Shown here piece after piece: positions 4,526 to 22,820 of a DNA stretch of 27,252 nt. Origin of the DNA: a virus; IMG/VR virus record IMGVR_UViG_3300024259_000133, positions 1 through 27,252 of that record; one strand, 5' to 3'. Position 1 is the stretch's first letter; each line of letters begins with the position of its first letter. Below the pieces are notes generated by a model that worked only from the letters and a program-made list of their open reading frames with translations, had not been told where the DNA came from and ran no database searches. The translations under genes were made by a program, and so were the position numbers.

Positions 4526-4559
4526 GAAGCTGAAGGAAGCGCTAACTTCCTTCAGCTTC
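4526..4559 (-). other. Perfect 14-bp leader hairpin of HNH cassette
   Basis: GAAGCTGAAGGAAG and its exact reverse complement flank a six-base loop. The predicted transcription start (about 4557) falls at the 5' base of the stem, so the mRNA would begin with the hairpin. No U-tract follows, so it is not a terminator. It is followed by the motif TTCTAACC shared with three other HNH cassettes. Confidence 0.85.
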
Positions 4560-4563
4560 ATTA

Positions 4564-4592
4564 TTTATAGCGAAATCAGAGTGCTATGTCAA
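4564..4592 (-). promoter_or_regulatory. Sigma70-type promoter of HNH gene 3824-4492
   Basis: The minus strand shows TTGACA (4592-4587), a 17-bp spacer and TATAAA (4569-4564). The match to the housekeeping consensus is strong and the spacing ideal. It starts 15 bp after the stop codon of the upstream tail assembly gene. Confidence 0.85.
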
Positions 4593-4607
4593 GCGCAATA
4601 GCCGAAA

Positions 4608-4952
4608 TCATTTGCTTTTATTCGCTTCACGTTCAAGCCTTGATTCTTCATTCATATCTGATATCATGGCTCCCGATACAGCGCATACTTTCTCGAATGT
4701 TTCTACAGGGCATTCTATTCCATAGCGGTCTATCCATTCCCAAACAGCTAAATGGTTTACCGATATTGGCCCACCAAAACTCATGATTAATTGGTTCTGA
4801 GTGGATTGATAAACCCGCCATGCGTCCATATTATTCGGGTTCAAATCTGGCAGACAAGTCTCGCAATTTGGAAGCTCGCCTTTTTGTTCGTGCATCTTAC
4901 GGCAAGCGTCACAACTTGGCTTTTCACGAACTCTCTCCGCCAGTTCAATCAG
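4608..4952 (-). CDS. Tail assembly chaperone, -1 frameshift extension (gpT-like domain)
   Basis: This frame is joined to the upstream chaperone by a -1 slip at A AAA AAC. Translation would then continue from CTG at 4952 without interruption for 114 residues, giving a fusion of about 248 aa. The segment has two CxxC pairs (CDAC and CETC about 13 residues apart), suggesting a zinc-binding module, followed by a helical C-terminus. In lambda-like phages the gpG/gpGT pair chaperones the tape measure protein during tail assembly, and the order here (tube, G, GT, tape measure) matches. An internal ATG at 4895 (MHEQKGELPN) has no convincing ribosome binding site, which favours expression by frameshifting over independent initiation. 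Confidence 0.82.
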   Translation of the reverse strand: MIELAERVREKPSCDACRKMHEQKGELPNCETCLPDLNPNNMDAWRVYQSTQNQLIMSFGGPISVNHLAVWEWIDRYGIECPVETFEKVCAVSGAMISDMNEESRLEREANKSK

Positions 4953-5353
4953 TTTTTTATTTCGGCCTTCTGAATGTTTGAATTATCAGTAGTCAACTGC
5001 TCCAGACCTTCAGACACTAGAATAGCAAAAGCCGGCCATTCCTGCATAAACTTGGTTTTGTTTTCATCCGTAACAGGGATCTTTTTTCCGGTTTCATCTA
5101 CAATTCCTTCCCATGAAACAACTATAAACCCCCATATGAGTTCCGAGCGTAGTTTCTCGTTAATCTCATTGGGGGTTTCATACCTCGTACCACGCCGATA
5201 TTCGGGCGGCTTCTTTTTGGATGTGCGTTTGTTGATCTTCTCCATCTCAGCCGCAGGAATAGTGCGGATCAGGATATGTCCGTCCTCCGGTTGCTCATCG
5301 TCAAAATAAAACTTCGCCGGTGGGTTGGGATCTTTCGCATTGAAAACTGGCAT
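4949..5353 (-). CDS. Tail assembly chaperone, zero-frame product (gpG-like)
   Basis: A 134-aa protein between the major tail tube gene and the tape measure gene, the standard site of the gpG-like chaperone. It starts MPVFNAKDPNPPAKFYFDDE and is acidic/basic mixed with no membrane segment. The stop codon TGA comes directly after the slippery heptamer, so ribosomes that slip add the cysteine-containing domain encoded at 4608-4952. The ATG at 5353 is preceded by GGAGGA and a GC-rich hairpin (5371-5387). Identification rests mainly on gene order, length and the frameshift signal, not on a recognised domain. Confidence 0.83.
   Translation of the reverse strand: MPVFNAKDPNPPAKFYFDDEQPEDGHILIRTIPAAEMEKINKRTSKKKPPEYRRGTRYETPNEINEKLRSELIWGFIVVSWEGIVDETGKKIPVTDENKTKFMQEWPAFAILVSEGLEQLTTDNSNIQKAEIKN
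4952..4958 (-). promoter_or_regulatory. Programmed -1 ribosomal frameshift site (A AAA AAC)
   Basis: The zero frame reads GAA ATA AAA AAC TGA, so the heptamer A AAA AAC is in the exact phase (X XXY YYZ) needed for a -1 slip, immediately before the stop. The -1 frame is open both across the site and for 114 codons beyond it. I did not identify a clear downstream pseudoknot. Confidence 0.85.
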
Positions 5354-5370
5354 TGTAAAAATCCTCCGAT

Positions 5371-5387
5371 CCCCGGTAACGCCGGGG
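5371..5387 (-). other. GC-rich hairpin upstream of tail chaperone ribosome binding site
   Basis: CCCCGG and CCGGGG pair around a five-base loop, ending three bases before the GGAGGA of the gene starting at 5353. There is no T-tract, so it is not a classic terminator. Confidence 0.6.
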
Positions 5388-5409
5388 GCGTCAAGAGTTT
5401 GAATGATTG

Positions 5410-5862
5410 TTAAATAAGAACCATGCAGCCGCTCACTTTTGCAGTGAAAGATGTCTGCATCAATCCTGACTTGTCTGCGGATACATCATAGGACGTAATG
5501 TTGACATGGGATACCGGAGTATCATTCCCTGTCGTGTCAGAAGGACTCCAATACCCAGCAGTAGCACAAGGAGTATAGTAGCTGGTATTGTCAACATAGA
5601 GCCGTAGGGTGGTTATGTTCGTGTTGTCCAGGTTTGCAGCTTTCAGCGCATCCTGACCGGTAGTGTCTGCCGGGTCGTAAAGGCCATTAAAAGTTACCTG
5701 GCCGCCGTCCTTCAGCCCGAACTTGAACGTCTTCCAATTATCCCCGAACTCCGTGTCTTCCAGGGAGTCCGAAGTAATCCCACTGAGAGACCATGTTCCC
5801 ATCCCAACCACAGAAGCCGTCCCCAATTTGACCGCGCAATCCTTACCTATTTTTGTTGCCAT
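5410..5862 (-). CDS. Major tail tube protein
   Basis: A 150-aa beta-rich protein starting MATKIGKDCAVKLGTASVVG, with the pattern of siphovirus tail tube proteins. It has an N-terminal strand around a small-residue turn, then 'FKFGLKDGGQVTFNGLYDP', the 'variance from background' signature typical of the family, and a C-terminal strand pair. Its position just before the frameshifted tail assembly chaperones supports the call. Its product forms the hexameric rings of the tail tube. The ATG has an excellent AGGAGG and is preceded by a terminator-like hairpin (5883-5914). It is the nearest downstream structural gene to the glycosyltransferase cassette, so it is one candidate substrate of that cassette (inference). 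Confidence 0.88.
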   Translation of the reverse strand: MATKIGKDCAVKLGTASVVGMGTWSLSGITSDSLEDTEFGDNWKTFKFGLKDGGQVTFNGLYDPADTTGQDALKAANLDNTNITTLRLYVDNTSYYTPCATAGYWSPSDTTGNDTPVSHVNITSYDVSADKSGLMQTSFTAKVSGCMVLI

Positions 5863-5882
5863 TTCTTTGCCCTCCTGAGCAT

Positions 5883-5914
5883 AAAAAAAGCCCGGTCCGA
5901 TGTGGACTGAGCTT
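5883..5914 (-). terminator. Intrinsic-terminator-like hairpin between HNH gene and tail tube gene
   Basis: On the minus strand AAGCTCAGTCC pairs with GGACCGGGCTT (one mismatch, one wobble) around a five-base loop, followed by seven Ts. It lies after the HNH stop at 5956 and just upstream of the AGGAGG of the tail tube gene. Confidence 0.75.
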
Positions 5915-5955
5915 TGAACTTAGGTGGGCTTCCCGTTCGGGAGCGTCCCGGTTAT

Positions 5956-6834
5956 TTACTTACATTTCAATTCACGATGTCTGCATCCTTTCTGTGTATG
6001 CACCCATTCATGGCACGTCTTGCAGAACGTGATTACATTCCACAAATCGTTTGCGATCATCTTATTTTGGGTTGCCCCATTTATGTGATGAACATGCAAA
6101 GATACTTCGCCTATGCGTTTGCCGCATCGTTGGCATTCATATTCATCACGTTCAAGCGCCATTTTTCTGAGTTCTGAAACTACTTCCCTAGATGTCCCCT
6201 TTCTAAAACCTCTTGGATATGATTTCTGTTCATAGGTAGGACACGCTTTTTTACACCCATCAGAACAATATATCCTACACGCCCCCCCAGTTTGCCCTTT
6301 TAGTGAAGTGATCCTAGACCTAACTTGTGCATAGTTCGGTTTAAAATGTTTCCCACAATAAGTGCATACGCATACCAGAAAACCGTCCTTATCTTCCGTT
6401 GGCAATTCAGCAACTGTTAGTTGATGCCCGTATGTTTTATATGAAACAGGCATACTTCGTAACAGCTTAATATTTTCCCTATTGTCATCTCTATACTGTG
6501 TAAAATATTCTGTTCTATCCTCTTCCCTGGCACGTTCTCGGCTTTTCCTGCGCCGCTCATCAATGTTTTTGTGATAACATTTTCTTGCGTGTCTTCTATA
6601 TCGTTCCTTGTTATTTCCGACCCACTCCATTGATTGCTGTATCAGCTTTTTTCTGTTTCGTTGGTAGTATTGCTTTTTATATATTTTAGCACATTCCTTA
6701 CATATACTTGAAACCCCATCCCTAGCTTGTTTATTCTTATGAAACCCTGAATATGTTTTTTCAATCCCGCACTTCGAGCAGACTTTGGATTCTTGACTTA
6801 TGAGTATGTTTTCTGGTATGCTTTTTTTAGCCAT
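5956..6834 (-). CDS. HNH homing-type endonuclease, chimeric architecture (292 aa)
   Basis: The N-terminus (MAKKSIPEN, then CSKC and CKEC zinc pairs) and the following basic repeats resemble the HNH protein at 3824-4492. The C-terminal half is instead homologous to the 413-aa HNH protein at 18152-19393. Both have a Cys pair module (CTYC here, CVNC there), the motif YCSDxCK, a CQxCG zinc knuckle, HVHHINGA or EVHHIEGV, and a final CxxCHxxxH. The catalytic histidines are in HVHHING. It thus looks like a domain swap between two homing endonuclease lineages. The gene has its own promoter and leader hairpin. The start at 6834 has only a weak ribosome binding site but is fixed by the conserved N-terminus. 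Confidence 0.9.
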   Translation of the reverse strand: MAKKSIPENILISQESKVCSKCGIEKTYSGFHKNKQARDGVSSICKECAKIYKKQYYQRNRKKLIQQSMEWVGNNKERYRRHARKCYHKNIDERRRKSRERAREEDRTEYFTQYRDDNRENIKLLRSMPVSYKTYGHQLTVAELPTEDKDGFLVCVCTYCGKHFKPNYAQVRSRITSLKGQTGGACRIYCSDGCKKACPTYEQKSYPRGFRKGTSREVVSELRKMALERDEYECQRCGKRIGEVSLHVHHINGATQNKMIANDLWNVITFCKTCHEWVHTQKGCRHRELKCK

Positions 6835-6867
6835 GAGGTCATATGTCCGAATATGATTTTATGGTTA

Positions 6868-6901
6868 GAAACGGCAGCGGTCTAGCCACCTCTGTCGTTT
6901 C
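6868..6901 (-). other. Leader hairpin of HNH cassette
   Basis: On the minus strand GAAACGACAG pairs with CTGCCGTTTC (one mismatch) and further internal pairs close an eight-base loop. The position relative to the promoter and the following TTCTAACC match the other three cassettes, while the stem sequence is different. Confidence 0.75.
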
Positions 6902-6905
6902 ATTA

Positions 6906-6934
6906 TTTATAGCAAAATTAACGGTTTGTGTCAA
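6906..6934 (-). promoter_or_regulatory. Sigma70-type promoter of HNH gene 5956-6834
   Basis: TTGACA (6934-6929), 17-bp spacer, then TGCTATAAA with an extended -10. The -35 box overlaps the TGA stop of the 53-aa gene at 6931-7092 (GAT TGA CA). Confidence 0.85.
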
Positions 6935-7092
6935 TCCTTTTTATCGTTACCTTTCCATTTGATGGTTTCATTAACCTGAACAGTGGAGATGCCACCTTTA
7001 AATACATTAACGACAATGTTCCCGACCTTGCCACTGACCAGGAACTCCTTAATCACCTTCATCGTTTCCATAAATGGTGTGTCATTTTTCAT
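6931..7092 (-). CDS. Small hypothetical protein (53 aa)
   Basis: The start ATG overlaps the stop of the glycosyltransferase gene (ATGA), which implies translational coupling. The protein starts MKNDTPFMETMKVIKEF and has one helix followed by a beta hairpin (KVGNIVVNVFKGGISTVQVN). The pattern recalls small YezD/DUF2292-type proteins, but that is only a resemblance by eye. The stop codon lies inside the -35 element of the next HNH cassette, so it marks the exact left border of that insertion. Function is unknown. Confidence 0.7.
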   Translation of the reverse strand: MKNDTPFMETMKVIKEFLVSGKVGNIVVNVFKGGISTVQVNETIKWKGNDKKD

Positions 7093-8336
7093 GCCGCCTC
7101 CCGATAGCTGAATCCATTCAACTTTTTGAATAACGAATGGGTTGAACGGTTTACCTCATAAGTTGTCAAGTGACCGATATCGATTGATGTGTCCACGCAA
7201 ATCGGGATGTCCAGCTTCCTAATCTTGTGACACAGCATCACATCCTCGCCAACAAACTCAGCCCCCTCAGTTCTCCCGAGTTCAAACCAGGGATATTCAA
7301 TATCGAACAGCACCCTGAGATCGTAAAGGATGCACCCGCAGCCCGTTGCATCAACCGGTACCAACTCCCCAGAATAACACTCAGCATCAGACACATGAAG
7401 GTACTTGCCCAATGTCCCACGATACAAGATAGGGTCAAACGGGGGCCATCGCCTGTGGACTGTTGTGCCAACCACCGGGACATTATGGCTGATCAACTTC
7501 TTAATGCAATCAGGCGGGTAAATCTGGTCCGTGTCCATCATCAGCAGATGAGTGCATCGTTGCTTCAGTGCTTGCTCAACCAATGAATTTCTGGCATCTG
7601 CGATATTCCCCGCGAACGATCCAACCGGGAACTGCGGCAGCATCAGGGTATAATCAGGCTTCTCCATCATTGTGAAAGAAACCATAAACTGCACCGGTAC
7701 ACTCGCTTCAACGATTGGAAGCCCGATTGCGTACTTCTGTCTGCCCTGCTCGATCTTCCGGGTCAGGAATAGCTTGTGGTCTTTCCTTATCGTATCGGTT
7801 TCGTAAACCCGGTCATAATCTGAATCGGTTTCCTTCCCCATCGCAGGGTGATCGTGCAGAATCCTTGCCCCCATCGCATAATGGAATCGCCCGATCTCCT
7901 CCATCCTCTCCCGCATTTCATCATCACAGTAGGAATGCTGGTATCCGGTGTGGAATATCTCCCCATCCAGGATGTCCAGGCATTTGCGGTGAATGATAAA
8001 ATGGGCGCAGTGGTTATGTCCCTTCACGGGGTGATCCCATTCAAACGCTACCAACCCCCAAACGTCTTGGAACCGCCCCATAGCATCAAGCGCAATCTTG
8101 AGCGCATCAGGCTCCAGGGTTACATCGTCACCAAGAAAGCAAATAATATCGTGGTTTGCCCTTGCGGATAACCTCGCCATCATCTTCGGACAACCTATCC
8201 GGTCATGGTCTATGTCGGTGATTATTTCATATTGATCTTCTGGTATCCCCGCATTTTTCTTAATGGAAGCTATGCAGTGCTTTGCCTTATCCGGTCTGAT
8301 TGTCGGGATAAGTATGCTTACTTTTTGTGTAGCCAA
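7089..8336 (-). CDS. Tandem-domain glycosyltransferase (GT-A fold, family 2-like)
   Basis: A 415-aa protein with two GT-A-like halves. The first (about 1-200) starts VSILIPTIRPDKAKHCIASI and has an acidic motif GDDV near residue 69. The second (about 225-400) has ADARNSLVEQAL followed by MMDTDQIYPPD with a DTD motif at 268-270, which in this fold binds the metal and nucleotide sugar. No membrane segment is visible, so it is probably cytosolic. The start is TTG (8336) with AAAGGAG at proper spacing. The gene overlaps the preceding glycosyltransferase by 50 bases and is coupled to the small gene after it. Its place between tail genes suggests a role in modifying virion protein or host glycan late in infection (inference). 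Confidence 0.85.
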   Translation of the reverse strand: MATQKVSILIPTIRPDKAKHCIASIKKNAGIPEDQYEIITDIDHDRIGCPKMMARLSARANHDIICFLGDDVTLEPDALKIALDAMGRFQDVWGLVAFEWDHPVKGHNHCAHFIIHRKCLDILDGEIFHTGYQHSYCDDEMRERMEEIGRFHYAMGARILHDHPAMGKETDSDYDRVYETDTIRKDHKLFLTRKIEQGRQKYAIGLPIVEASVPVQFMVSFTMMEKPDYTLMLPQFPVGSFAGNIADARNSLVEQALKQRCTHLLMMDTDQIYPPDCIKKLISHNVPVVGTTVHRRWPPFDPILYRGTLGKYLHVSDAECYSGELVPVDATGCGCILYDLRVLFDIEYPWFELGRTEGAEFVGEDVMLCHKIRKLDIPICVDTSIDIGHLTTYEVNRSTHSLFKKLNGFSYREAA

Positions 8337-9147
8337 GGTATGACTCCTTTATGCTATTGACGTTGTTGTTCTCAAATATGTATCTCCTAAGCCCTATCTC
8401 TGGGTTATACGCATCGAGTTCAGCCCTAATCCGATCAGCATCCCACTGGAGCGCATTAAATCTCCCCGAACAATTATTTTTCCTGAAGTCAATCAGGTTC
8501 TCATGCGTTGCCATCCCGTCACAACCGTGGATGCCCATCACCAGGGCATTTCGATTCATCGCCATCGACTCGTACACACAACGCCCGGTTCCGATCACAA
8601 GGTCTGCCCAACTGATATGATCCCTTACTCCATCCATGTGGTCTGAAACAACCCTGAAATTGTACCCCCGTGTTGCGTATGCACAAAGCCCGATCAGGGT
8701 TTGGTTGTTGTTGAAGTACAAAATGTTCTGCAACTTCTGGTTCACGGGTCTATCAGGTGTGAAATATTCAAGGTCAATCGGGTTCCTGATAACGTCAGAT
8801 TTAAACTCTGCGCTCTCTAGTGCAGACTGTATTTCCTCGCTGACTGAAACGTAATGGTTCGCCCCAGGTATCGGTCTTTCAACCCTGGGTATCACCCCGT
8901 GGCATGTGTAGACTCTTGTTCCGATATTCCACTCAGATAACGCCTCAAGGCACGGGGCATGGTTTACGAGAGCGATACTATATCTTTTATTTTTATTTGC
9001 CTCTATGGGTACAATGCTGGACTCTGAGGGCGTATGTGCGTAAACATCAACGTCATGATCCTTGCTCAGCGAATGATACATGGTTTCAACCCATGTTTCA
9101 GTCCCTGCCCTTTGCGATAATGCGATGTTGGTCAATAAAATATTCAA
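8287..9147 (-). CDS. Glycosyltransferase, family 4-like (GT-B fold)
   Basis: A 286-aa protein starting MNILLTNIALSQRAGTETWVE, where the GTETW segment corresponds to the N-terminal glycine-containing loop of GT4 enzymes. Near residues 185-215, GTGRCVYESMAMNRNALVMG matches the donor-sugar-binding 'E..A...P.V' region of GT-B folds. It is shorter than typical GT4 enzymes (about 350-400 aa). The start is TTG overlapping the TGA of the radical SAM gene (TTGA), with GGGAG upstream. It belongs to one coupled unit with the radical SAM gene and the second glycosyltransferase. Donor and acceptor are unknown. Confidence 0.8.
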   Translation of the reverse strand: MNILLTNIALSQRAGTETWVETMYHSLSKDHDVDVYAHTPSESSIVPIEANKNKRYSIALVNHAPCLEALSEWNIGTRVYTCHGVIPRVERPIPGANHYVSVSEEIQSALESAEFKSDVIRNPIDLEYFTPDRPVNQKLQNILYFNNNQTLIGLCAYATRGYNFRVVSDHMDGVRDHISWADLVIGTGRCVYESMAMNRNALVMGIHGCDGMATHENLIDFRKNNCSGRFNALQWDADRIRAELDAYNPEIGLRRYIFENNNVNSIKESYLGYTKSKHTYPDNQTG

Positions 9148-9803
9148 GGTAACTCCCGTTTACCCAATCTTCCCCCGACTTCCTCAGCAGTTAATCCGGC
9201 CTGGCAATCACGGCATATCTCAAGCTCTTTCCGGTATGCCATTTCCCCATACCGAAGTTGGTTTTCCCTTGCTTCTGTGAGGTCTTTCCATGTCCCGACA
9301 ACCGATTCATGCCGCCAATCCTGACAGCACAAAAGCACATCCCCGTTAGCCGCAATCGGCATAGTCTCCACAGGAACCCTGCAAGGTGGATTGGCCAACC
9401 GCTGCCTGTGTTCCAACTCAGGCGTGTATCGACAATTCCCAGCCCTGGATGTCGCAACCGTCCTTGATCCGGCAGGGACACAATCAACACTGTCGAACTT
9501 CTTCAAAACAGGATGGTCAATGATGCCATTCGTTGCTGCTTCCATCTGAACCCCTGGAAGATGCTTCCTGGCATAGGAAAGACGCCATTCTATGTCAGGG
9601 TCAAGGGTCGGTTCGTAATGAAGTAGAAAACCTATTCGGCCTTCATACTGGTGTTCCGCCAGCCACTTTATAATAGTCGTGTAAACCCACGACAGCATCC
9701 CGTAAGGTTCTTTGCCACCGTACACATCATCAAACGGGCAGTACCGGCAATGACCATTACAATCGGTGTAGGTCTGGAAGTAAACTATCTGTGGATGTCT
9801 CAT
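9144..9803 (-). CDS. Radical SAM protein with SPASM-like C-terminus (short)
   Basis: A 219-aa protein with the radical SAM cluster motif CNGHCRYC (Cys 15, 19, 22), which binds a 4Fe-4S cluster and S-adenosylmethionine, and LHYEPTLDP near residue 61, equivalent to the 'GEP' motif. The C-terminus has PPC (141), INGDV-like ANGDVLLCC (159, 160) and CRDC (197, 200), the cysteine layout of a SPASM auxiliary-cluster domain. Normal radical SAM/SPASM proteins exceed 300 aa, and the barrel seems to lose several strands after about residue 100, so the protein may be an evolved short form or carry an internal deletion. The ATG overlaps the stop of the tail terminator gene, so it is expressed with the late genes. 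The substrate is unknown. Confidence 0.85.
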   Translation of the reverse strand: MRHPQIVYFQTYTDCNGHCRYCPFDDVYGGKEPYGMLSWVYTTIIKWLAEHQYEGRIGFLLHYEPTLDPDIEWRLSYARKHLPGVQMEAATNGIIDHPVLKKFDSVDCVPAGSRTVATSRAGNCRYTPELEHRQRLANPPCRVPVETMPIAANGDVLLCCQDWRHESVVGTWKDLTEARENQLRYGEMAYRKELEICRDCQAGLTAEEVGGRLGKRELP

Positions 9804-10587: not shown

Positions 10588-10912
10588 CGTCTATTTCCTC
10601 TGCCATCATTTCCACCATAATGTTCCGTTCGTCAGGATTGATAATGGACTTGATATTGAAATACCGTATTCCGTGTTTGATTCTCATCTCGGCAGTTATC
10701 CCGGAATGGTATCGAATCCTGATCTTGTGGGATATTGCGACTTCAACCTTCATTGCCTCGATACGCTCAGAACCCCGCAAAGGCCAGATAGCGGCACGGA
10801 GATTTGCGCCATTCGTGATTGCAGCCCAAACAACCGTCACGCCACCCATACCATCTGGCGTTTCAGTTGCGTCCTGAATATCTATTACATGCCGTAAATT
10901 TCCTGCCCTCAT
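10577..10912 (-). CDS. Head-tail adaptor (SPP1 gp16 / phage head-tail joining family)
   Basis: A 111-aa protein starting MRAGNLRHVIDIQDATET with the family pattern 'aG.l.hri.iq....' then 'W....nlRA.i.p..g.E', 'ISHKIRIRYHSGITAEMRI' and 'YFNIKSIINPDERN'. It forms the stopper ring that closes the portal after packaging. The ATG overlaps the stop of the HNH gene at 10909-11718 (ATGA), so no terminator separates them and the HNH gene is fully embedded in the reading unit. Confidence 0.88.
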   Translation of the reverse strand: MRAGNLRHVIDIQDATETPDGMGGVTVVWAAITNGANLRAAIWPLRGSERIEAMKVEVAISHKIRIRYHSGITAEMRIKHGIRYFNIKSIINPDERNIMVEMMAEEIDGGS

Positions 10913-11718
10913 AATGCCCCGCCAAATGCTAATGATGGTTGAAAAGGTTTTTCCAATTTAGCACCTTTTTTCAGATTCTCTTTTGCCCACATGGGTTGAA
11001 GATTTGACAACGCCCAACACTTTTTGAAATCTATGTCATCAGGTGTTTTGAAGTTGAATACTGATTGCGGTATTTTGTGATCAATATGCCAACCATCAAT
11101 GCCGTAATTATCCCAGGACATCCCAATCTTGAACTGGCTCTCAAGGTGTTCCCTTAATTCTGCGATAGTAAAATCCAGCATTTTCATTGTTTGGCAATCT
11201 TTATTCCCCTTCAAAGACTTACGAACAGCACCCCGCATTCTGTGCGACAACCTGAAATGTGGATCAAGTATTTTTTTCTTCCTATACTCACTACGGATTT
11301 TTTTTATTTTTTCAGGATTATTCTTTACCCATCCTTTTTGATGTTTCCAATTATTCTTTCTCCCATATTCAAGATTATACTCAGAAACATGCTCTTTATT
11401 TTTTCTATACCACTTCCTTACACTTTTCCTGCTAATTTCTGGGTGCGCCTTTCTATATTTTTCAGTTCTTTCTATAACCTTTTCACTGTTTGCTTTATAC
11501 CATCGCCGATTACATTCACGCACCTTGTCCCTGTTTTTGTCACTCCAATCCTTATTCCATGAATTAACATGGTCCCTATTTGAGTTTTTCCATTTTTTCG
11601 TTGTTGACATTTTGCATTTCTTACATGATGGATACAACCCACTTTTTGATTGCTTGTTTTTAAAAAACTCACTAACCGGCTTTTCTTCCCCGCACTTTGA
11701 ACAAACTTTTGTTTCCAT
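10909..11718 (-). CDS. HNH homing-type endonuclease, second of a tandem pair (269 aa)
   Basis: The N-terminal zinc module (METKVCSKCGEEKP, then CKKCK) is followed by about seven basic aromatic repeats of 15-16 residues (about 42-150). The C-terminal HNH domain has GWHIDHKIPQSVFNF, then the NLQPMWAKENL segment and the conserved tail KLEKPFQPSLAFGG. The start METKV (11718) overlaps the stop of the preceding HNH gene (TAATG). An upstream in-frame start at 11799 lies inside that gene and adds a sequence absent from relatives, so it is rejected. The stop overlaps the ATG of the head-tail adaptor. It has no promoter of its own and would be made from the promoter at 12678-12706. Confidence 0.9.
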   Translation of the reverse strand: METKVCSKCGEEKPVSEFFKNKQSKSGLYPSCKKCKMSTTKKWKNSNRDHVNSWNKDWSDKNRDKVRECNRRWYKANSEKVIERTEKYRKAHPEISRKSVRKWYRKNKEHVSEYNLEYGRKNNWKHQKGWVKNNPEKIKKIRSEYRKKKILDPHFRLSHRMRGAVRKSLKGNKDCQTMKMLDFTIAELREHLESQFKIGMSWDNYGIDGWHIDHKIPQSVFNFKTPDDIDFKKCWALSNLQPMWAKENLKKGAKLEKPFQPSLAFGGAL

Positions 11719-12605
11719 TATAGCGACCCTCCAAATGCAAGGGACGGTTGGAATGGTTTTTCGAGTTTTGCTCCTTTGCTTAGGTTTTCTTTTGCCCAAA
11801 GCGGTTGGAGGTTCTCAAGACTCCAGCATTTACGAAAATCAATATCATCGTATGACTCAAAATTGAAAACAGATACAGGGATGATGTGGTCAATGTGCCA
11901 CTCCCCGTAATTGCTCCATGACATCCCATCTTCAAATTGGTTTTCTAAATGACTTTTTAAATCTTTGAATTTATACCCAACAATATCTTCCCAATGCTTA
12001 CCGTTTTTCCTGGCATTTAAACTATGCGATATTAAGCACCTAATGTTTTTCGATATTCTGTACTGCAAATTATTGTTGTATAAATCCCTGTCTCTTTCCT
12101 GATATTTCAACCTGACCGATGGTCTACTATTATATTCCTTGCGATACTCAGTCAGCTTGGTTTGGTTTTCCTCGTTTGAATAATGTCCTTCACTCCATTC
12201 TATACGCCTTGCTTTTGTTTCAGGTTTGGCGTTGTATTCTTTTTGCCATGCTTTCGCACGCTCTTTATTTTCAGGTCTTGAACGACATTCTTTAACTCGC
12301 TGAACTCTTCGTTCTCCATTTTCAGGGATAGAATAATATTCTCTCTGATGCTTTAGGATTGCGTCCTTATTTTTAATATAATGAACAGCACTGGTTTTTC
12401 GTTGTCTTTCCTTGTTCTCAGGCTTGGAGCAATAAATGACATTTTGTTTTTTGGTACATTGGATACAACAGGCGCGTAACCCTATGCTGCTTCGGCTGTT
12501 TTTAGGGAAATATTCAACCGTTGCGGGTAAGGAGTTTAAGCACTTAGTGCATTCCTTGACCAGTTGACCGTCATCATTTAAAAATGGTATGGTTCGTTTA
12601 CCCAT
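11718..12605 (-). CDS. HNH homing-type endonuclease, first of a tandem pair (295 aa)
   Basis: The N-terminus MGKRTIPFLNDDGQLVKEC resembles the HNH protein at 21778-22719. A zinc module (CTKC and CIQC) is followed by about seven basic ~17-residue repeats with the pattern 'KPENKER..' (about 60-180). The C-terminal HNH domain has EWHIDHIIPVSVFNF, NLQPLWAKENLSKG and the tail KLEKPFQPSLAFGG. The start at 12605 is chosen because GGAGGT lies eight bases upstream; the alternative ATG at 12620 contains that Shine-Dalgarno sequence. The gene has the cassette promoter and leader hairpin and overlaps the next HNH gene by one base. Confidence 0.9.
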   Translation of the reverse strand: MGKRTIPFLNDDGQLVKECTKCLNSLPATVEYFPKNSRSSIGLRACCIQCTKKQNVIYCSKPENKERQRKTSAVHYIKNKDAILKHQREYYSIPENGERRVQRVKECRSRPENKERAKAWQKEYNAKPETKARRIEWSEGHYSNEENQTKLTEYRKEYNSRPSVRLKYQERDRDLYNNNLQYRISKNIRCLISHSLNARKNGKHWEDIVGYKFKDLKSHLENQFEDGMSWSNYGEWHIDHIIPVSVFNFESYDDIDFRKCWSLENLQPLWAKENLSKGAKLEKPFQPSLAFGGSL

Positions 12606-12639
12606 GACGCTTACCTCCATAAAGGTAGTCGATTGGTTA

Positions 12640-12673
12640 GAAGCGGTGAGGGTGCCAAAACCCTTACCGCTTC
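12640..12673 (-). other. Leader hairpin of tandem HNH cassette
   Basis: On the + strand GAAGCGGTGAGGGT faces ACCCTTACCGCTTC, giving a 14-position stem with a single non-Watson-Crick pair. The predicted start of transcription (about 12671) lies at its base, and TTCTAACC follows as in the other cassettes. Confidence 0.82.
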
Positions 12674-12677
12674 GTTA

Positions 12678-12706
12678 TTTATAATAAAATCATACCATTA
12701 TGTCAA
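12678..12706 (-). promoter_or_regulatory. Sigma70-type promoter of tandem HNH genes
   Basis: TTGACA (12706-12701), 17-bp spacer and TATAAA (12683-12678). The -35 box begins one base after the TAG stop of the head-tail connector gene. Confidence 0.85.
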
Positions 12707-16443: not shown

Positions 16444-16455
16444 TTGTCAGGCCTC

Positions 16456-16752
16456 CTATCTTGTTTTGTATTTTGGCTTGATCGCCTTTTCGACCACTTT
16501 GGTCGCTTTCTTGGCTTGTGGTTTTTTGGCCATCCCTTCCTTCATGGCGGCGAAATCTTTTGATGTCACCTCCGCATCCTTTTTTATATCCCTGACAGCC
16601 CCTTTCAATGACTTGACCTCCAAACCCATTTCGTTGATTAACTCATTCATGGTTTCAAGACTGCCGGACAATTTTATCTCCAACCCTGTCGCTTCGTCCT
16701 TCGATATTTCCTCTGCCCACCGCCGGATCAATGCAATGTCATTTCGTTCCAT
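16456..16752 (-). CDS. Small coiled-coil protein with basic tail (98 aa)
   Basis: The start at 16752 (MERNDIALIRRWAEE) has GGGAG upstream; longer alternatives lie inside the preceding gene. It overlaps the upstream gene by 14 bases. Residues 1-75 are highly helical with heptad-like spacing, and the end is Lys/Ala-rich (AKKPQAKKATKVVEKAIK). Charge and helicity are compatible with a scaffold or DNA/RNA-binding accessory, but there is no specific evidence for either. Confidence 0.6.
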   Translation of the reverse strand: MERNDIALIRRWAEEISKDEATGLEIKLSGSLETMNELINEMGLEVKSLKGAVRDIKKDAEVTSKDFAAMKEGMAKKPQAKKATKVVEKAIKPKYKTR

Positions 16753-17524: not shown

Positions 17525-17554
17525 AATCTCTCCCCCTAAATATCCCGTGATGAA

Positions 17555-17610
17555 CGGGGTGGAAGGCGGCGGGAGAACCACCTTATCGGGTCGCGACCCT
17601 ATCCACCCCG
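17555..17610 (-). other. Extended inverted-repeat structure in 92-bp intergenic gap
   Basis: CGGGGTGGA (17555-17563) pairs exactly with TCCACCCCG (17602-17610), and between them GGGTCGCGACCC (17588-17599) is a perfect 12-bp palindrome. It lies between the stop of the decoration-like gene and the ribosome binding site of the gene starting at 17524. No T-tract is present. Confidence 0.6.
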
Positions 17611-17616
17611 GTTATG

Positions 17617-18078
17617 TTAGGCGATTGCAGTAGGCGGTGCAGCCGATGCGAATCGCGGTTTAGACAGAACAGCCACAGCCCCGGTCAGCATCGAGGATGC
17701 CGTGGATGACGCAACATAAAGCGTCACCCAATCAAAGTCATCACTCAACTGTGAGCCGTTAAGCTCAATGGTGTAGGTCTTGTTCGCCGTGGTAATCGCT
17801 GTGGCGGAACTAGCCGTTGAGGTTTTGGTCATGGTGTCAGACGGGCTTGTGCCACTCACCCAATAATGACCGGGATCAATCACCGTGGCACTGGTGGCCG
17901 AGGCATCCTTAGCCTCCTTAACCTGAAGCAGGGAACCGGTAGTCAGCGCCCCCACACTCACGATGAAAGAAACATGCTGATAATTTTTCATGGAAATGTA
18001 ATCACCCGTGGCAACAGAGCTGAGGGCCGCAGGGTGAAGGACATTCACCAGTTTGTTTTCTTGTACCATTGCGTCCAT
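17617..18078 (-). CDS. Probable capsid decoration or head structural protein (153 aa)
   Basis: It starts MDAMVQENKLVNVLHPAALS with an AGGAGG eight bases upstream. The composition is rich in Ala, Ser and Thr, and the strand pattern (HVSFIVSVGALTTGSLLQVK; KTYTIELNGSQL; DWVTLYVASST) fits beta-sandwich virion proteins encoded just after the major capsid gene. An HNH gene now separates it from that gene. A terminator-like hairpin precedes it, as for other structural genes. Function is inferred from position and composition only. Confidence 0.7.
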   Translation of the reverse strand: MDAMVQENKLVNVLHPAALSSVATGDYISMKNYQHVSFIVSVGALTTGSLLQVKEAKDASATSATVIDPGHYWVSGTSPSDTMTKTSTASSATAITTANKTYTIELNGSQLSDDFDWVTLYVASSTASSMLTGAVAVLSKPRFASAAPPTAIA

Positions 18079-18100
18079 TTTATAATCCTCCTTGGTGAAT

Positions 18101-18124
18101 AAAAAAAGCGCCAGAAGGCGCTTC
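18101..18124 (-). terminator. Intrinsic-terminator-like hairpin after 413-aa HNH gene
   Basis: On the minus strand AAGCGCC pairs with GGCGCTT around a short loop, followed by seven Ts. It lies between the HNH stop (18152) and the AGGAGG of the next structural gene. Confidence 0.78.
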
Positions 18125-18151
18125 TAATATCCGTTTAAATTGTGTTGAAAA

Positions 18152-19393
18152 TTATTGGTTAATAACCGCTCCTTTGCTATCTGGTTCACAGGCTTCACGC
18201 TGGTAATCATGGTATGTGCAGCCTGGTTGTGAATGAATCGCCTTATGACAGCTATGGCAAACTGTGATGCAGTTGTCGAGATCGTTGGCAAGCATTGGTT
18301 CCTGCGCTACGCCTTCGATATGGTGAACCTCCAACTCCGTGCAAGCTCCGCATTTCTGGCATTGGTAGCTGTCACGGTTTAAGACTAGGGTGTTTAGGTC
18401 GGGGTCTAGGGTTTCTTGCCGGTATTTGCTTCGTGGGTTATGCCCTTCAGGATGTCTTATCTTCCTGAATACAGAACATGAGGTTTTGCATTCATCCGAA
18501 CAATAAAAATATGAACTTCCGGCGGCACCTTTTTGATCGTATAGAACCCTAATTCTGGCTGAAACTTGTCCCTTTTTAGGCCGGAACCACTGTTCACAAT
18601 TCACGCATTTCACCTGTAGGATTTGCTCGTTTTTCGGATCTCTTCTAACTTTTTCCGCAAAACCCAGTTGATCTTTGTAGGTATCATAACCGCAAAACCC
18701 TTCTAACCAATTCGGATTATTGGAACCGGTGAACCTGCTTTTAGTAAAAGTCCCAAAACATTCCTTGCTACAATAAAACGTTTCATACTGTTTTTTACGT
18801 GCTTCATAAATCCATTTCGTCTTTTTGCAGTCTGGGTTTCCGCATTCAACTTCTATCTTGCCACCTTTCCAAGCGCAGCTTTTATCACCAGAATGATGAA
18901 CAGAGCCTCCACAACTCGTTGTGAATCCCCTAATCAGGCTACTCTTCAAAACAACCTTTTCAACCCCACAATCACATTTACACAAATATTGAAGGTGCCT
19001 ATGTTTATCATATCCCGAATATCGAATGACAACTAATTCACCAAAGCGCTGGCTTATGATATCATCAGTTCTACGCGAATCATGGAAACATTTGGTTGAA
19101 CAAAAATTCTGCTCTTGCACAAGGCTTTTAAATTTCTTTATCACCTTGCCGCATTTATTACATTCTACATTTGCCTTTCCACCCTTCCATCCTGAAGCCT
19201 TATCGCCTTTTTTATGGAAATTCTGCGATTTGCCCTTTTGAAATCTACCTTTCCTGGTTGGAATCCCGAATCTCTTTAGCATCCCACTTATGCTTCCATA
19301 TGTGGGCAACCCTAACTCTTCAGCACATTTCCTAATTGATAACCCCTGGTCAATATAAAGATTTTCAAGCTGTGCTTTTGTTATGTTCGCCAT
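18152..19393 (-). CDS. Large HNH homing-type endonuclease (413 aa)
   Basis: It starts MANITKAQLENLYIDQGLSI, followed by RKCAEELGLPTYGSISGMLK, a helix-turn-helix-like N-terminal DNA-binding module seen in homing endonucleases. Several zinc-knuckle modules follow (CNKC, CKCDCG, CGNPDC, YCSKECF, CVNC, YCSDECK), with two GDKxxxWKGGK segments. The C-terminal HNH has YQCQKCGACTELEVHHIEGV and CHSCHKAIHSQPGC. The C-terminal ~200 residues match the HNH protein at 5956-6834. The start at 19393 has GAGGG eight bases upstream; the upstream in-frame start at 19423 would cross the promoter inverted repeat. It lies immediately after the major capsid gene. Confidence 0.9.
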   Translation of the reverse strand: MANITKAQLENLYIDQGLSIRKCAEELGLPTYGSISGMLKRFGIPTRKGRFQKGKSQNFHKKGDKASGWKGGKANVECNKCGKVIKKFKSLVQEQNFCSTKCFHDSRRTDDIISQRFGELVVIRYSGYDKHRHLQYLCKCDCGVEKVVLKSSLIRGFTTSCGGSVHHSGDKSCAWKGGKIEVECGNPDCKKTKWIYEARKKQYETFYCSKECFGTFTKSRFTGSNNPNWLEGFCGYDTYKDQLGFAEKVRRDPKNEQILQVKCVNCEQWFRPKKGQVSARIRVLYDQKGAAGSSYFYCSDECKTSCSVFRKIRHPEGHNPRSKYRQETLDPDLNTLVLNRDSYQCQKCGACTELEVHHIEGVAQEPMLANDLDNCITVCHSCHKAIHSQPGCTYHDYQREACEPDSKGAVINQ

Positions 19394-19412
19394 ATCTTTT
19401 TCCCTCTGCCAA

Positions 19413-19443
19413 CCTAAAAGCAACCAATATGATCGCTTTTAGG
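19413..19443 (-). other. Inverted repeat overlapping the -10 region of HNH promoter
   Basis: CCTAAAAGC (19413-19421) and GCTTTTAGG (19435-19443) pair perfectly with a 13-base gap. Unlike the other four cassettes, one arm lies between the -10 box and the predicted start of transcription. It may therefore act as an operator in DNA and not as an RNA hairpin. Confidence 0.65.
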
Positions 19444-19470
19444 TATAGCAAAGAAGCGGTTATTTGTCAA
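19442..19470 (-). promoter_or_regulatory. Sigma70-type promoter of HNH gene 18152-19393
   Basis: TTGACA (19470-19465), 17-bp spacer ending TTTGC, then TATACC (19447-19442) with an extended -10 TGC. It begins nine bases after the stop of the major capsid gene. Confidence 0.8.
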
Positions 19471-19479
19471 GTTAAATCG

Positions 19480-20805
19480 CTAACTTCTGGCCTGTAAAGT
19501 TATAAAATGCGATTGGGTGTAATCCGAACCGCCTTTATACGGAGTGACTTCCTGTGAAAGGATAGTTTGCCCGTCAAGCCTCAGAACGTATCTAAAAACA
19601 GACTCATCATAGATGAATTGGACATGAATAGACATATCGGACTTTAATCCACCCTTCTCTGCAATGATGTAACCGTTTTTAAAGTCAGCCAGGTAAATAT
19701 CCCCCAAATCTCCGATGCTCTGACATTGCTCGATGGCCATGACCGGACGACCAAATAATGTCGAATACCCAAGGCCAGACAACCCACCTGCCGGCATATA
19801 GATGGGAATTCCACCCGTACCTACGGCGATACTCATAGTATGGAGCTGCGGTTCAAGGTTCTGATTTATAAGCCACACCGCATTCGGCCTACTGGAAGCA
19901 AACAGCCTGCTCCACATGTTAATCACGTTCTCTGCCAAAATCGAATCCGCGGCCTGTCCGGTTTCTTTGCTTTGAGTCACCAGTGCGCCGGAATTCAGGA
20001 TGCCGAGCGGCTGACCGACCCCCAGGCCGTTGATCACAGCATCATCAATCATAAATCCGAACTCAGACACAAACGCGGTTCTCAGAATACCTTCCAAGGC
20101 ACCTGCATCGTCCAAAAGCTCATCGGTTGCATACGCCAACCCAATCAGCTTATTCAGGGTCAGTTCGATCTTTCTGAACGCAGGCTTACTGGCGGTCTTT
20201 TCACCGGCTTCTTCTAACCAATATCCGCGCACACCGCCTTGACGACTTCCCGTTGCTCTGGAAGTCTCATCAAACCCGTTGATCTTGATGGAATTGGCGT
20301 TACCAGAAACGGTAATCCTACGGCACAGGCTCGCCAGTTTGCCGGTTTCCCAAACCTGCTTCAGCAGTTCAGAACTGAAGTCCTGCTGGACGAGAAAACC
20401 GCCATCGCTGGGTATAGTCTCGCCCATACCAGTGGCGGCACGAGTATTCAGCAGTCTGGGGTCAACCATACCACCGGGGCAACCGGCCCTCATAATCGCA
20501 GCCATCTGCCCACCGAAGGAAGCGAAGCTATCCCGCTTCTCCTGTTTCTTAGCAGTCATGGTATCCACCAGGGGTTTACTAACCACTTCACGGGTCGGTT
20601 TTGACAGTTCATCGGTCATCCTCTCAGCGTCCGCCATAGAGTCTGCAATCTTCCGAACTTCTTTCACCCTGACCAAAAGCTCGTTCCGGTAATCAACTTC
20701 CTCCTCGGACGGGTCACGATTCTCAGCGATGCAAACAGCATCCTTTTTTGCGACCTTCTCCATAAGGGCCGCGATGTCACTGCGATATTCGCTCTGAGTT
20801 TTCAT
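19480..20805 (-). CDS. Major capsid protein (HK97 gp5 fold)
   Basis: A 441-aa protein. Residues 1-105 form a charged helical delta/scaffolding domain (KTQSEYRSDIAALMEKV...). The body then follows the HK97 plan: GMGETIPSDGGFLVQQDFSS at the start, an E-loop region (GYWLEEAGEKTASKPAFRKIELTL), the spine-helix segment EFGFMIDDAVINGLGVGQPL with the 'NG.G.gqP.Gil' motif, and an A-domain strand FRYVLRLDGQ. GGAGAAC lies upstream of the ATG. Together with the S78 protease directly upstream it suggests proteolytic removal of the delta domain during maturation. An HNH gene follows after nine bases. Confidence 0.93.
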   Translation of the reverse strand: MKTQSEYRSDIAALMEKVAKKDAVCIAENRDPSEEEVDYRNELLVRVKEVRKIADSMADAERMTDELSKPTREVVSKPLVDTMTAKKQEKRDSFASFGGQMAAIMRAGCPGGMVDPRLLNTRAATGMGETIPSDGGFLVQQDFSSELLKQVWETGKLASLCRRITVSGNANSIKINGFDETSRATGSRQGGVRGYWLEEAGEKTASKPAFRKIELTLNKLIGLAYATDELLDDAGALEGILRTAFVSEFGFMIDDAVINGLGVGQPLGILNSGALVTQSKETGQAADSILAENVINMWSRLFASSRPNAVWLINQNLEPQLHTMSIAVGTGGIPIYMPAGGLSGLGYSTLFGRPVMAIEQCQSIGDLGDIYLADFKNGYIIAEKGGLKSDMSIHVQFIYDESVFRYVLRLDGQTILSQEVTPYKGGSDYTQSHFITLQARS

Positions 20806-20823
20806 TTTGTTCTCCTTATTTTA

Positions 20824-21555
20824 TCAATCTTTTGCCAATAACATCTTGGTTTTATCCGCTTCCCTGGTGTCCTCAGAGGAATGGCTCGCCGCCGGTTCCT
20901 TTTCAGTCTCGGAATGGCTCGCCGCCGGTTCCGAGAGGGGCAAATAGCTCCGCAATACCTTAAAATCGTCCTCAACCAATTCGTCCTCCGCCTTGATCTT
21001 GCGGATTACGTTGTCAAGCTCTTCAAATTTGTCTTCCATCGGCTCCTCTTTCTCGAACGCACTCCGAACCTGTGCCGTTGTCGTTGGGTAAGCAGGATAT
21101 GTGACCACACTGACATCGAAGAGAGACACATCCCGGAGTACCCTTGTATTCTCTTCATAATCGTCATCGGCCTTATTCACCGTGAAGCCAAATGACATTT
21201 GAGACTTGTCACCTCGCCGTAAACTTATGAGCAAATCCCTGCCAACAGTTGTATCTGGAACGTCAATTTCAACCGCCAAACCTTTGTCGTCTTCAGTAAG
21301 TCTCAATGTCCCCGCTTTATTTCTTCCGATAACCGCCATTGGGTCATGCTCTACCAATGCCCTGACATCCGCTTCTTTAAGAGTTTTTTTGAACGCTCCA
21401 GGAGCTATTGATTCCTTGAACATCCCACCAATGTTGGTCCACTCGTTGAACCTAGCGGCATATCCAACCACCTTCGGAGAGTCATTGTTATCTGCGAGTC
21501 TCACTTCTGCGTGTGGCAAGTCTCTCCTCTCAATATCCTTTTTGTCGCGATACAT
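20824..21555 (-). CDS. Prohead protease (S78/U35 family)
   Basis: A 243-aa protein with the family order: VGYAARFNEWTNIG, ESIAPGAFKKTLKEADVRAL, catalytic His in LVEHDPMAVIGR, GTLRLTEDDKGLAVEIDVPD, and catalytic Ser in QMSFGFTV, with DVSVVTYPAYPTT closing the core. It cleaves the capsid delta domain and itself in the prohead. The start at 21555 has AGGAGGG six bases upstream; the earlier in-frame start lacks support. The C-terminal tail is acidic and holds a tandem repeat (EPAASHSE). A terminator-like hairpin precedes the gene. Confidence 0.92.
   Translation of the reverse strand: MYRDKKDIERRDLPHAEVRLADNNDSPKVVGYAARFNEWTNIGGMFKESIAPGAFKKTLKEADVRALVEHDPMAVIGRNKAGTLRLTEDDKGLAVEIDVPDTTVGRDLLISLRRGDKSQMSFGFTVNKADDDYEENTRVLRDVSLFDVSVVTYPAYPTTTAQVRSAFEKEEPMEDKFEELDNVIRKIKAEDELVEDDFKVLRSYLPLSEPAASHSETEKEPAASHSSEDTREADKTKMLLAKD
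20878..20932 (-). repeat. 22-bp direct repeat (33-bp period) in protease tail
   Basis: GGAATGGCTCGCCGCCGGTT plus CC occurs at 20878-20899 and identically at 20911-20932, encoding a repeated EPAASHS segment in the C-terminal tail of the prohead protease. Confidence 0.9.
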
Positions 21556-21577
21556 AACGCCCTCCTGTTTTTGGCAT

Positions 21578-21610
21578 AAAAAAAAGGCCACCCGGTTTTC
21601 CGGAATGGCC
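21578..21610 (-). terminator. Intrinsic-terminator-like hairpin upstream of protease gene
   Basis: On the minus strand GGCCATTCCGG, AAAA, CCGGGTGGCC form a strong stem (small internal mismatch), followed by eight Ts. It lies after the 45-aa ORF that follows the HNH gene and just before the AGGAGGG of the protease gene. Confidence 0.85.
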
Positions 21611-21636
21611 CATGCTGGTTAAACTGAATTATTTGT

Positions 21637-21774
21637 TTAGGAGCTACTGTCCCTTTTCAGCCCTTTTTTCGCTTCCCTGATTGCAGCCACGGCCTCGTGA
21701 AGTTGCAGCTTTTTTAGGGATATTAAGTCAAGGATTTCCCTGGCCGTGATTTTGACTTTACTGCGAGTATTCAT
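21637..21774 (-). CDS. Small helical protein (45 aa)
   Basis: The ATG follows the HNH stop codon by three bases, with no clear ribosome binding site, so translation is likely coupled. The protein (MNTRSKVKITAREILDLISL, ending KKGLKRDSSS) is almost entirely amphipathic helix and Lys-rich, without a membrane segment. It may be part of the inserted HNH element or an original phage gene between the small Cys protein and the protease. A terminator-like hairpin follows it. Coding status is likely but not certain. Confidence 0.5.
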   Translation of the reverse strand: MNTRSKVKITAREILDLISLKKLQLHEAVAAIREAKKGLKRDSSS

Positions 21775-21777
21775 GGC

Positions 21778-22719
21778 TTATCCAAATGCTAGAGATGGTT
21801 GAAAGGGTTTTTCGAGTTTATTCCCTTTGCTTATGTTTTCCTTGGCCCACATCGGCGCAAGGTTTTCCAAACACCAACAACGCTTAAAATCCAAATCATC
21901 AGGTGTTTTGAAATTGAAAACTGATCGGGGTATTTTATGATCCAAATGCCATTTACCATAATTCTCAAAAGTCATCCCCGGTTGGAACTGTTTTTTGAGG
22001 TGTTTTTTCAAATCGTCAAGCGTGAAATCAACCAACTTTTCCCAATGTATATGATTCTTATTCCCCTTCAACGCTTGATACATCGAACTGCTTATGTTGC
22101 GTGATAACCTAAAGTTTGGATCATTCTTTCTTAACTTGTTGTCTCTTTTCCTGTACCAGGCTCTTACTTCAGGTTTTGCTTGGTATTCTTTAGCCCTTTT
22201 TTTGCTTTTTGCTTTTACTTCTGGATTAGACCGATACTCTTTTGATTGCTTTGCCAACCTATCCTTATTTTCGAGGTAATACAGTTTAGCTCTTTCTTTT
22301 ATCCTGACCTTCACTTCAGGTTTGGAATTATGCAACGCTTTTTTCTGTTTGATCCGTTCTTTATTCTCCGGTTTTTGGCTAAACTCGGCGTTTTTTCTAT
22401 TAGCGCATTTCTTGCAATACGATGTCAAACCGTGTTTTTTTCGTTTATCACGGTTAAAATATTCATACGTAGCAGGTAGCGTCTTTTTGCAAACAGAACA
22501 CGTTGCCACATCTTTATGAATATGCCCGTTTTCCCATCTTTTAGCGTATTCGTTCAAGTATATATTCCGGCACTTCCTGCATTCTGAGCGTAACCCGAGA
22601 AAACCCCTTTTTCTATATGCGAAATATTCAAGTGTTGCAGGGAATACCCCACTACATTTAGTGCATTTCTTAGCCGGTTGACCTTCAGGAGTGAAATGTG
22701 TTACTGTTTTTTTACCCAT
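21778..22719 (-). CDS. HNH homing-type endonuclease with double zinc module (313 aa)
   Basis: The N-terminus MGKKTVTHFTPEGQPAKKC is followed by two zinc modules in tandem (CTKC/CRKC near 19-52 and CSVC/CKKC near 74-105), each with the 'P.T.EYF' pattern. Five basic repeats of about 17 residues with 'KPE.K.R.K' follow (about 110-190). The C-terminal HNH has KWHLDHKIPRSVFNF, NLAPMWAKENISKG and the tail KLEKPFQPSLAFG, which ends without the final two residues of its relatives. It has its own promoter and leader hairpin. The DNA encoding the C-terminal tail closely matches the 3' ends of the genes at 10909 and 11718. Confidence 0.92.
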   Translation of the reverse strand: MGKKTVTHFTPEGQPAKKCTKCSGVFPATLEYFAYRKRGFLGLRSECRKCRNIYLNEYAKRWENGHIHKDVATCSVCKKTLPATYEYFNRDKRKKHGLTSYCKKCANRKNAEFSQKPENKERIKQKKALHNSKPEVKVRIKERAKLYYLENKDRLAKQSKEYRSNPEVKAKSKKRAKEYQAKPEVRAWYRKRDNKLRKNDPNFRLSRNISSSMYQALKGNKNHIHWEKLVDFTLDDLKKHLKKQFQPGMTFENYGKWHLDHKIPRSVFNFKTPDDLDFKRCWCLENLAPMWAKENISKGNKLEKPFQPSLAFG

Positions 22720-22753
22720 GAGAGCATCTCCTTATTAGATGTTTTTGTGGTTA

Positions 22754-22787
22754 GAGGCGGTAAGGGTGTCAAGACCCTTATCGCTTC
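22754..22787 (-). other. Leader hairpin of HNH cassette
   Basis: On the minus strand GCGATAAGGGT pairs with ACCCTTACCGC (one A-C mismatch) around CTTGAC. The predicted transcription start is at its 5' base, and CTCTAACC follows the stem as in the other cassettes. Confidence 0.82.
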
Positions 22788-22791
22788 ATTA

Positions 22792-22820
22792 TTTATAACA
22801 AATCCTTTAGGTTATGTCAA
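22792..22820 (-). promoter_or_regulatory. Sigma70-type promoter of HNH gene 21778-22719
   Basis: TTGACA (22820-22815), 17-bp spacer and TATAAA (22797-22792). It begins two bases after the TAA stop of the small Cys-rich gene. Confidence 0.85.

Follow-up and report, generated by a model that had tools for sequence, protein, structure and literature searches.

Four cassettes in a 27,252-nucleotide virus record (IMG/VR record IMGVR_UViG_3300024259_000133; hereafter the window), each a promoter followed by a hairpin-bearing leader and a gene for an HNH-type endonuclease, very probably constitute a cis-antisense RNA module of the SymR/RepX (FinP-like) kind that represses the translation of mobile endonucleases, present as self-specific copies within a single genome. 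The pattern of A·C mismatches without G·U pairs on the mRNA strand, the folding energies of the two strands, an antisense promoter at a fixed position, and matches to SymR and to the RepX locus show that the molecule under selection is an RNA of the strand opposite the nuclease mRNA. Like the head and tail genes of the window, the nuclease genes lie on the minus strand.

The exact pattern TTGACA-N17-TATAMM occurs five times in the window, on the minus strand only, compared with a mean of 0.02 in shuffled sequence; an earlier reading of this DNA from its letters alone (the sequence-only reading) had pointed out all five promoters. In four of them (cassettes A, B, C and E; Table 1) the promoter runs on as TATAAATAA[TC]GAA into a hairpin (hairpin 1) with 14-nt arms and a 6-nt loop, and then into TCTAACC, each time ahead of a nuclease open reading frame (ORF), so that the repeated cassette described in that reading is borne out. 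The 5' end of the mRNA is predicted at the base of hairpin 1, and the folding z of this hairpin in the four window leaders ranges from -3.7 to -7.2. The shared TCTAACC is noteworthy for its fixed place after the hairpin, but the motif itself is near chance (seven occurrences in the window versus 2.3 expected). A second conserved hairpin lies between TCTAACC and the start codon and holds the Shine-Dalgarno sequence in or beside its loop (CCATAT-AAAAGG-ATATGG in A, TACCT-TTATGG-AGGTA in C, and CATCT-AATAAGG-AGATG in E). Neither this Shine-Dalgarno hairpin nor the antisense promoter found within each of the four ORFs figured in the earlier reading.

Pattern scans of viral and genome contigs, followed by searches with R1, a covariance model built on the sense leader, gave a set of 20 leaders, 4 in the window and 16 elsewhere. 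R1 found further leaders in loci that had been collected by protein rather than by leader, and also one in the cultured Pseudomonas phage PS-1. The 20 leaders precede homing-type nucleases of PHROGs 1035, 8660, 374, 99 and 314 (assigned for representatives); one chromosomal copy, in Roseovarius (L185), stands before an HNH_3 + AP2 protein and another copy (L132) before a NUMOD3 protein. Portability of the cassette, which precedes different nuclease families, is supported. A covariance analysis of homologous leaders, which the sequence-only reading had suggested as a check, revealed that pairing is kept by covariation: in the model-fitted alignment, 16 of 19 pairs contain compensatory changes (87 cells versus 25 in shuffles) and the covariation score is 0.56 versus 0.16 when shuffled, while an independent MAFFT alignment of 12 leaders yielded 0.45 versus 0.16. 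Selection on structure and not on sequence, as first claimed, is supported.

The mismatches in helix 1 reveal which strand carries this structure. On the mRNA strand, the 20 leaders contain 28 A·C or C·A mismatches and no genuine G·T (two apparent G·T counts are one-base bulge artefacts in L152 and L383), and each such A·C mismatch becomes a G·U wobble on the opposite strand. When folds of the opposite strand were computed from codon 2 to the hairpin base, its RNA was the more stable in every one of the 20 leaders (mean -12.7 kcal/mol); it forms 104 G·U pairs versus 8 and has a mean folding z of -6.5, compared with -3.4 for the sense strand. Dinucleotide shuffles give a small bias, as expected for a G/U-rich strand, and reached the observed strand difference in 27 of 3000 trials. 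The notion that the A·C mismatches are a mere by-product of the A/C-rich linker of the mRNA was rejected, as the whole cause, by composition-preserving shuffles. On the antisense strand, the first hairpin extends from 5-6 bp to as many as 16 bp and takes in the antisense of the start codon, and 21 of 26 pairs in the antisense-strand alignment are kept with changes on both sides.

These results bear directly on the function that had been suggested for hairpin 1, namely a 5'-terminal stem that shields the transcript from 5'-end-dependent decay (RppH/RNase E), antisense RNA playing no part. Shielding would fit the predicted start at the hairpin base and the stability of the mRNA-strand hairpins, as well as the unrelated promoter of cassette D, which also has a hairpin near its start, one that is retained in L345, L346, L347 and L357 although its sequence is wholly replaced. 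It does not predict mRNA-strand mismatches that are never G·U, an mRNA strand that is the less stable one every time, a fixed promoter on the opposite strand, or matches to SymR and RepX (the last two described below), and we regard it as improbable. The earlier reading was incomplete, the opposite strand being the one for which the structure is optimised; the other proposal made there, that the hairpin binds a regulator, came nearer the mark, the regulator being most likely the antisense RNA itself.

To locate the antisense promoter, every antisense-strand position of each ORF start was scored and the best site taken without constraint. The distance between the end of the best antisense -10 box and the start codon is exactly 12 nt at 17 of 20 loci, 13 nt at two and 19 nt at one; the promoter lies within the initial ~45 nt of the ORF. 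The average score was 10.5, whereas 461 control ORF starts averaged 5.6 (p = 5e-8) and codon shuffles 5.7. The window copies read TTGAC[TC]-18-TGGTATNNN in A, B and C and TTGACC-18-TGTTACTGT in E (the 18-nt spacer being counted to the -10 hexamer), and the antisense -10 region of cassette B is TGGTATGCT. This fixed position is not explained by shared protein ancestry, because the nuclease families and their N-termini differ; an N-terminal stretch is nonetheless common to some of the nucleases (A, B, L134, L135b and L236).

A covariance model of the antisense strand (R2), built from phage-type leaders only, gives, in each of the four cassettes, a plus-strand match of 74-75 nt that stretches from the ATG to hairpin 1. 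The predicted antisense RNA runs from a start opposite codon 2 to the predicted mRNA start. One of its hairpins carries the Shine-Dalgarno complement in its loop, and UUAUUUAUA forms the end of the other; the sequence opposite the sense -10 region supplies AUUAUUUAUA at the antisense 3' end. Two of the four antisense ends are the top two sites of a scan for terminator-like sites in the first 20 kb. Among the four window copies, the calculated pairing energy of each antisense RNA is -72 to -88 kcal/mol for its own sense leader, compared with 0 to -25 kcal/mol for the others; the four copies should therefore be largely self-specific, which would provide a reason for stems that differ while their pairing is kept. 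TCTAACC might form a pseudoknot with the hairpin loop, but this candidate was dropped since the complement is not conserved in the loops.

Outside phages, R2 matched E. coli SymR (L387; 44.9 bits, E = 2.4e-8), a plasmid leader (L386; 43.3 bits, E = 6e-8) and IncQ repA at the RepX locus (L385; 33.7 bits, E = 1.4e-5), each at full length and on the antisense strand. The plasmid leader, in pCY-VIM (L386:640-800), is RepX/SymR-like and sits behind a repF-like 3' end and before a small gene and a type IV secretion gene. In the other direction, the Rfam symR model matched the antisense strand of the Pseudomonas phage PS-1 leader (39.4 bits, E = 5.9e-4), and Rfam Plasmid_R1162 (RF00043) matched cassette A at full length (E = 0.028 for the window). 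RF00043, which is named as an antisense RNA, reads the repA mRNA strand at L385:701-776 (AAAGGAG, AUGGCU) and may have been filed on the target strand.

Within 398 Pseudomonadota genomes, R2 found 29 places in 19 genomes, and the genes behind these matches encode Pfam SymE_toxin, RadC and many small proteins. In 27 of the 31 loci examined, an antisense -10 box is placed 12-13 nt from the start codon; in E. coli symE a TAGAAT sits 13 nt from the ATG. Several matches per genome are common (G292, G297 and G335 have four each), and those at L391-L416 precede many small proteins without a Pfam match, possibly an undescribed set of antisense-controlled genes.

The structure of the mRNA alone might also account for the leaders, as in T4: the Shine-Dalgarno hairpin would tune or delay translation, and the opposite-strand transcript would be incidental. 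This hairpin is conserved and covarying, and hairpins at the ribosome-binding site (RBS) do control I-TevI, segB and mobE by sequestering it (PMC2988022). On the mRNA strand, however, it comprises only 5-6 bp and its loop takes in part of the Shine-Dalgarno sequence, whereas the same hairpin reaches 13-16 bp on the opposite strand in many members; moreover, promoter choice in T4 leaves the hairpin out, while the promoter here includes it. We consider this explanation still less probable than shielding. Weakest of all is a DNA element, in which the palindrome, as an operator or cruciform, would bind the endonuclease for autorepression, or would be a mobility signal: the inverted repeat lies directly downstream of the promoter, the left cassette boundary falls at the promoter and I-TevI does repress its own promoter (PMC2988022), but pairing is conserved where sequence is not, strand-asymmetric mismatches are unexpected for a duplex operator, and the element also occurs before unrelated nucleases, SymE, RadC and plasmid genes.

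Several observations weigh against the antisense module. The antisense promoters of L237, L253, L383 and L152 score weakly, L319 departs from the fixed promoter position, and for both E. coli symE and L343 the scan placed another site ahead of the one at 12-13 nt. A classical terminator has a stronger U-tail than UUAUUUAUA, the A/C-rich linker supplies part of the strand effect (though composition-preserving shuffles do not reproduce it), and C and E could partly cross-pair (-25 kcal/mol). Finally, both Rfam models score below their gathering thresholds: symR (RF01809) reaches at best 39.4 bits (L383) and 33.8 bits (L253) against a threshold of 61, and RF00043 reaches 33.4 bits (cassette A), on the mRNA strand that is the model's own reading strand, against a threshold of 55.

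An antisense module would work as follows. A near-consensus host-type promoter would produce the endonuclease mRNA, with its 5' end at the base of hairpin 1; expression of the nuclease genes from their own promoters, as the sequence-only reading held, is supported at the level of sequence. An opposing sigma70-type promoter within codons ~4-14 would produce an antisense RNA of about 75-80 nt that starts opposite codon 2, extends over the start codon, Shine-Dalgarno sequence and remaining leader, and ends at hairpin 1, with the complement of the sense -10 box (UUAUUUAUA) as its U-rich tail. Transcription of both RNAs is predicted from these promoter sequences. Of the two hairpins of the antisense RNA, the first would display the Shine-Dalgarno complement in its loop, and pairing with the mRNA leader would block ribosome entry and translation. 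Such translational repression would be expected from the action of SymR on symE and from that proposed for RepX on repA. A strong promoter combined with accumulated antisense RNA could keep the nuclease low and yet allow a burst on entering a cell without the antisense RNA; alternatively, the purpose may be a plain low ceiling on a harmful nuclease. The module would move with unrelated homing-type endonucleases, its stems and loops having diverged so that copies act mostly on themselves.

Among the closest described parallels is SymR, a 77-nt RNA whose promoter lies inside the symE ORF and whose -10 mutation increases symE mRNA threefold and SymE protein more than sevenfold (PMC1891008). As in that cis-antisense system, the phage loci present a predicted RNA of ~75 nt opposite the start codon and RBS, a promoter at a fixed place inside the target ORF, a covered Shine-Dalgarno sequence, two stem-loops, the second of them terminator-like with a short (weak) 3' tail, and a profile common to SymR and RepX. 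Both RNAs begin with the antisense of the start codon (AGUCAU in SymR, AGCCAU in the phage) and their linkers are GAUUAG and GGUUAG, respectively. In contrast, symE is LexA-controlled and encodes an AbrB-fold toxin in a restriction locus, whereas the phage module has a near-consensus sigma70 sense promoter, homing-type endonucleases as targets and several divergent copies per phage; a search for a LexA box at the phage sense promoters found none that was consistent.

RepX of R1162/RSF1010, a FinP-like ligand of FinO, is 75 nt long, overlies the RBS and start codon of repA-repC as an antisense RNA, and contains two stem-loops along with a GUUA linker (PMC8136791), features that the phage RNAs share; RepX mutations raise plasmid copy number, and FinO binds RepX (PMC8136791; PMC9977716). 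The IncQ repA leader also has CTAACC (CTGACC in L385) and ATGGCTA at matching places. Unlike the phage RNAs, RepX lies between repF and repA, with hairpin 1 in the coding end of repF, and controls plasmid replication. T4-type control, too, involves structured RNA where phage homing-endonuclease genes begin, and in Aeromonas phage 25 a strong hairpin precedes the RBS of seg43(25) (PMC2988022). T4-type control differs in operating through promoter choice and cis sequestration, antisense RNA not being described there.

We found no report of antisense control of phage homing endonucleases in the papers searched, which came from an open-licence library. How a selfish nuclease is kept harmless to phage and host yet available for homing is an open question, to which T4 contributes just promoter choice and RBS hairpins; a portable antisense switch common to the symE toxin and repA would be a new answer. 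On a broader view, to which we give slightly less credence than doubt, SymR, IncQ RepX and the phage leaders form one widespread, portable antisense superfamily of Pseudomonadota and their mobile elements, which phage homing endonucleases employ as a self/non-self timer, with divergence of stems and loops selected for orthogonality among the copies of a genome. If so, the nuclease would be made immediately in a naive cell and silenced where the module is resident. The Rfam families SymR and Plasmid_R1162 would be joined, and FinO/ProQ-type chaperones suggest themselves as cofactors. A member is at hand in the cultured Pseudomonas phage PS-1, and the antisense -10 box can be separated from the protein by synonymous mutation.

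Table 1. Coordinates of cassette features in the window and of D-type leaders in related loci
Feature	Position	Strand	Description or basis
Sense promoter A	4564..4592	-	sigma70-type TTGACA-17-TATAAA; pattern scan
Sense promoter B	6906..6934	-	pattern scan
Sense promoter C	12678..12706	-	pattern scan
Sense promoter D	19442..19470	-	different short hairpin next; pattern scan
Sense promoter E	22792..22820	-	pattern scan
Hairpin 1 of A	4526-4559		
Hairpin 1 of B	6868-6901		
Hairpin 1 of C	12640-12673		
Hairpin 1 of E	22754-22787		
Antisense promoter A	4451..4480	+	within ORF; TTGACT-18-TATTGG, TG before -10
Antisense promoter B	6793..6822	+	TTGACT-18-TATGCT, extended -10
Antisense promoter C	12564..12593	+	TTGACC-18-TATGGT, extended -10
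Antisense promoter E	22678..22707	+	TTGACC-18-TACTGT, extended -10
Predicted antisense RNA A	4487..4560	+	two hairpins, 3' hairpin 4526-4559; R2 73.3 bits
Tail of RNA A	4560-4569	+	ATTATTTATA
Predicted antisense RNA B	6829..6902	+	R2 68.6 bits
Predicted antisense RNA C	12600..12674	+	R2 67.0 bits; top terminator-like site
Predicted antisense RNA E	22714..22788	+	R2 76.4 bits
ORF A	3824..4492	-	HNH endonuclease, 222 aa; Pfam HNH
ORF B	5956..6834	-	HNH endonuclease, 292 aa; Pfam HNH
ORF C	11718..12605	-	endonuclease VII-like HNH; PHROG 1035
ORF C2	10909..11718	-	endonuclease VII-like, start overlaps C stop (TAATG); PHROG
ORF D	18152..19393	-	HNH endonuclease, ATG start 19393; Pfam HNH
ORF E	21778..22719	-	endonuclease VII-like HNH, 313 aa; PHROG 1035
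D-type leader, window	19390-19470	-	
D-type leader, L345	4295-4365		
D-type leader, L346	9640-9720		
D-type leader, L347	6056-6136		
D-type leader, L357	5860-5930		

Comparison of the cassette borders among relatives identifies the mobile unit. The close relative L345 has an empty site where the window carries cassette E. In L147 another nuclease with its own leader lies ~75 bp beyond that site, inserted behind a small phage ORF whose stop TGA overlaps TTGACA, and in L346 another nuclease and leader stand behind a homologue of the gene upstream of C. From these comparisons, the unit extends from the -35 box to the stop codon of the nuclease. Nucleases of homing-family PHROGs whose insertions are present in some close relatives and absent from others conform to free-standing homing endonucleases, and they presumably home. 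The start of ORF C was placed at ATGGGT (12605) from its position behind the leader, and the R2 search of the window found no leader belonging to C2. These two endonuclease VII-like genes stand in tandem (10909-12605) and have a common C-terminus, LEKPFQPSLAFGG, which is present in ORF E too. Searches with the major capsid protein, terminase and HNH sequences pointed to no clear host.

Cassette D represents a second promoter type, with a shorter and different hairpin, no R2 antisense-RNA match, and relatives in the four loci listed in Table 1. D-type promoters consist of TTGACA, a spacer containing ACCGCTTCTTTG, and a TATA box, and stand before HNH genes located right after the major capsid gene. 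In the hairpin after the -10 box the sequence is wholly changed and the pairing kept, with G·T pairs on the mRNA strand.

Pattern scans that ignored structure produced many chance matches, and several candidates were set aside. The SEN34 match is an ordinary terminator-like hairpin with the same loop, GTGCGCTAACAC, and L182 is a hairpin without an ORF. L127, L136 and L144, which combine TATAAATAA, a hairpin and CTAACC, were rejected as members because they belong to another phage family with other genes. In these contigs (IMG/VR 3300021255 and 3300001528), TTGACA-17-TATAAATAA with a hairpin and CTAACC is repeated before unrelated genes, and the elements possibly represent a separate leader regulon.

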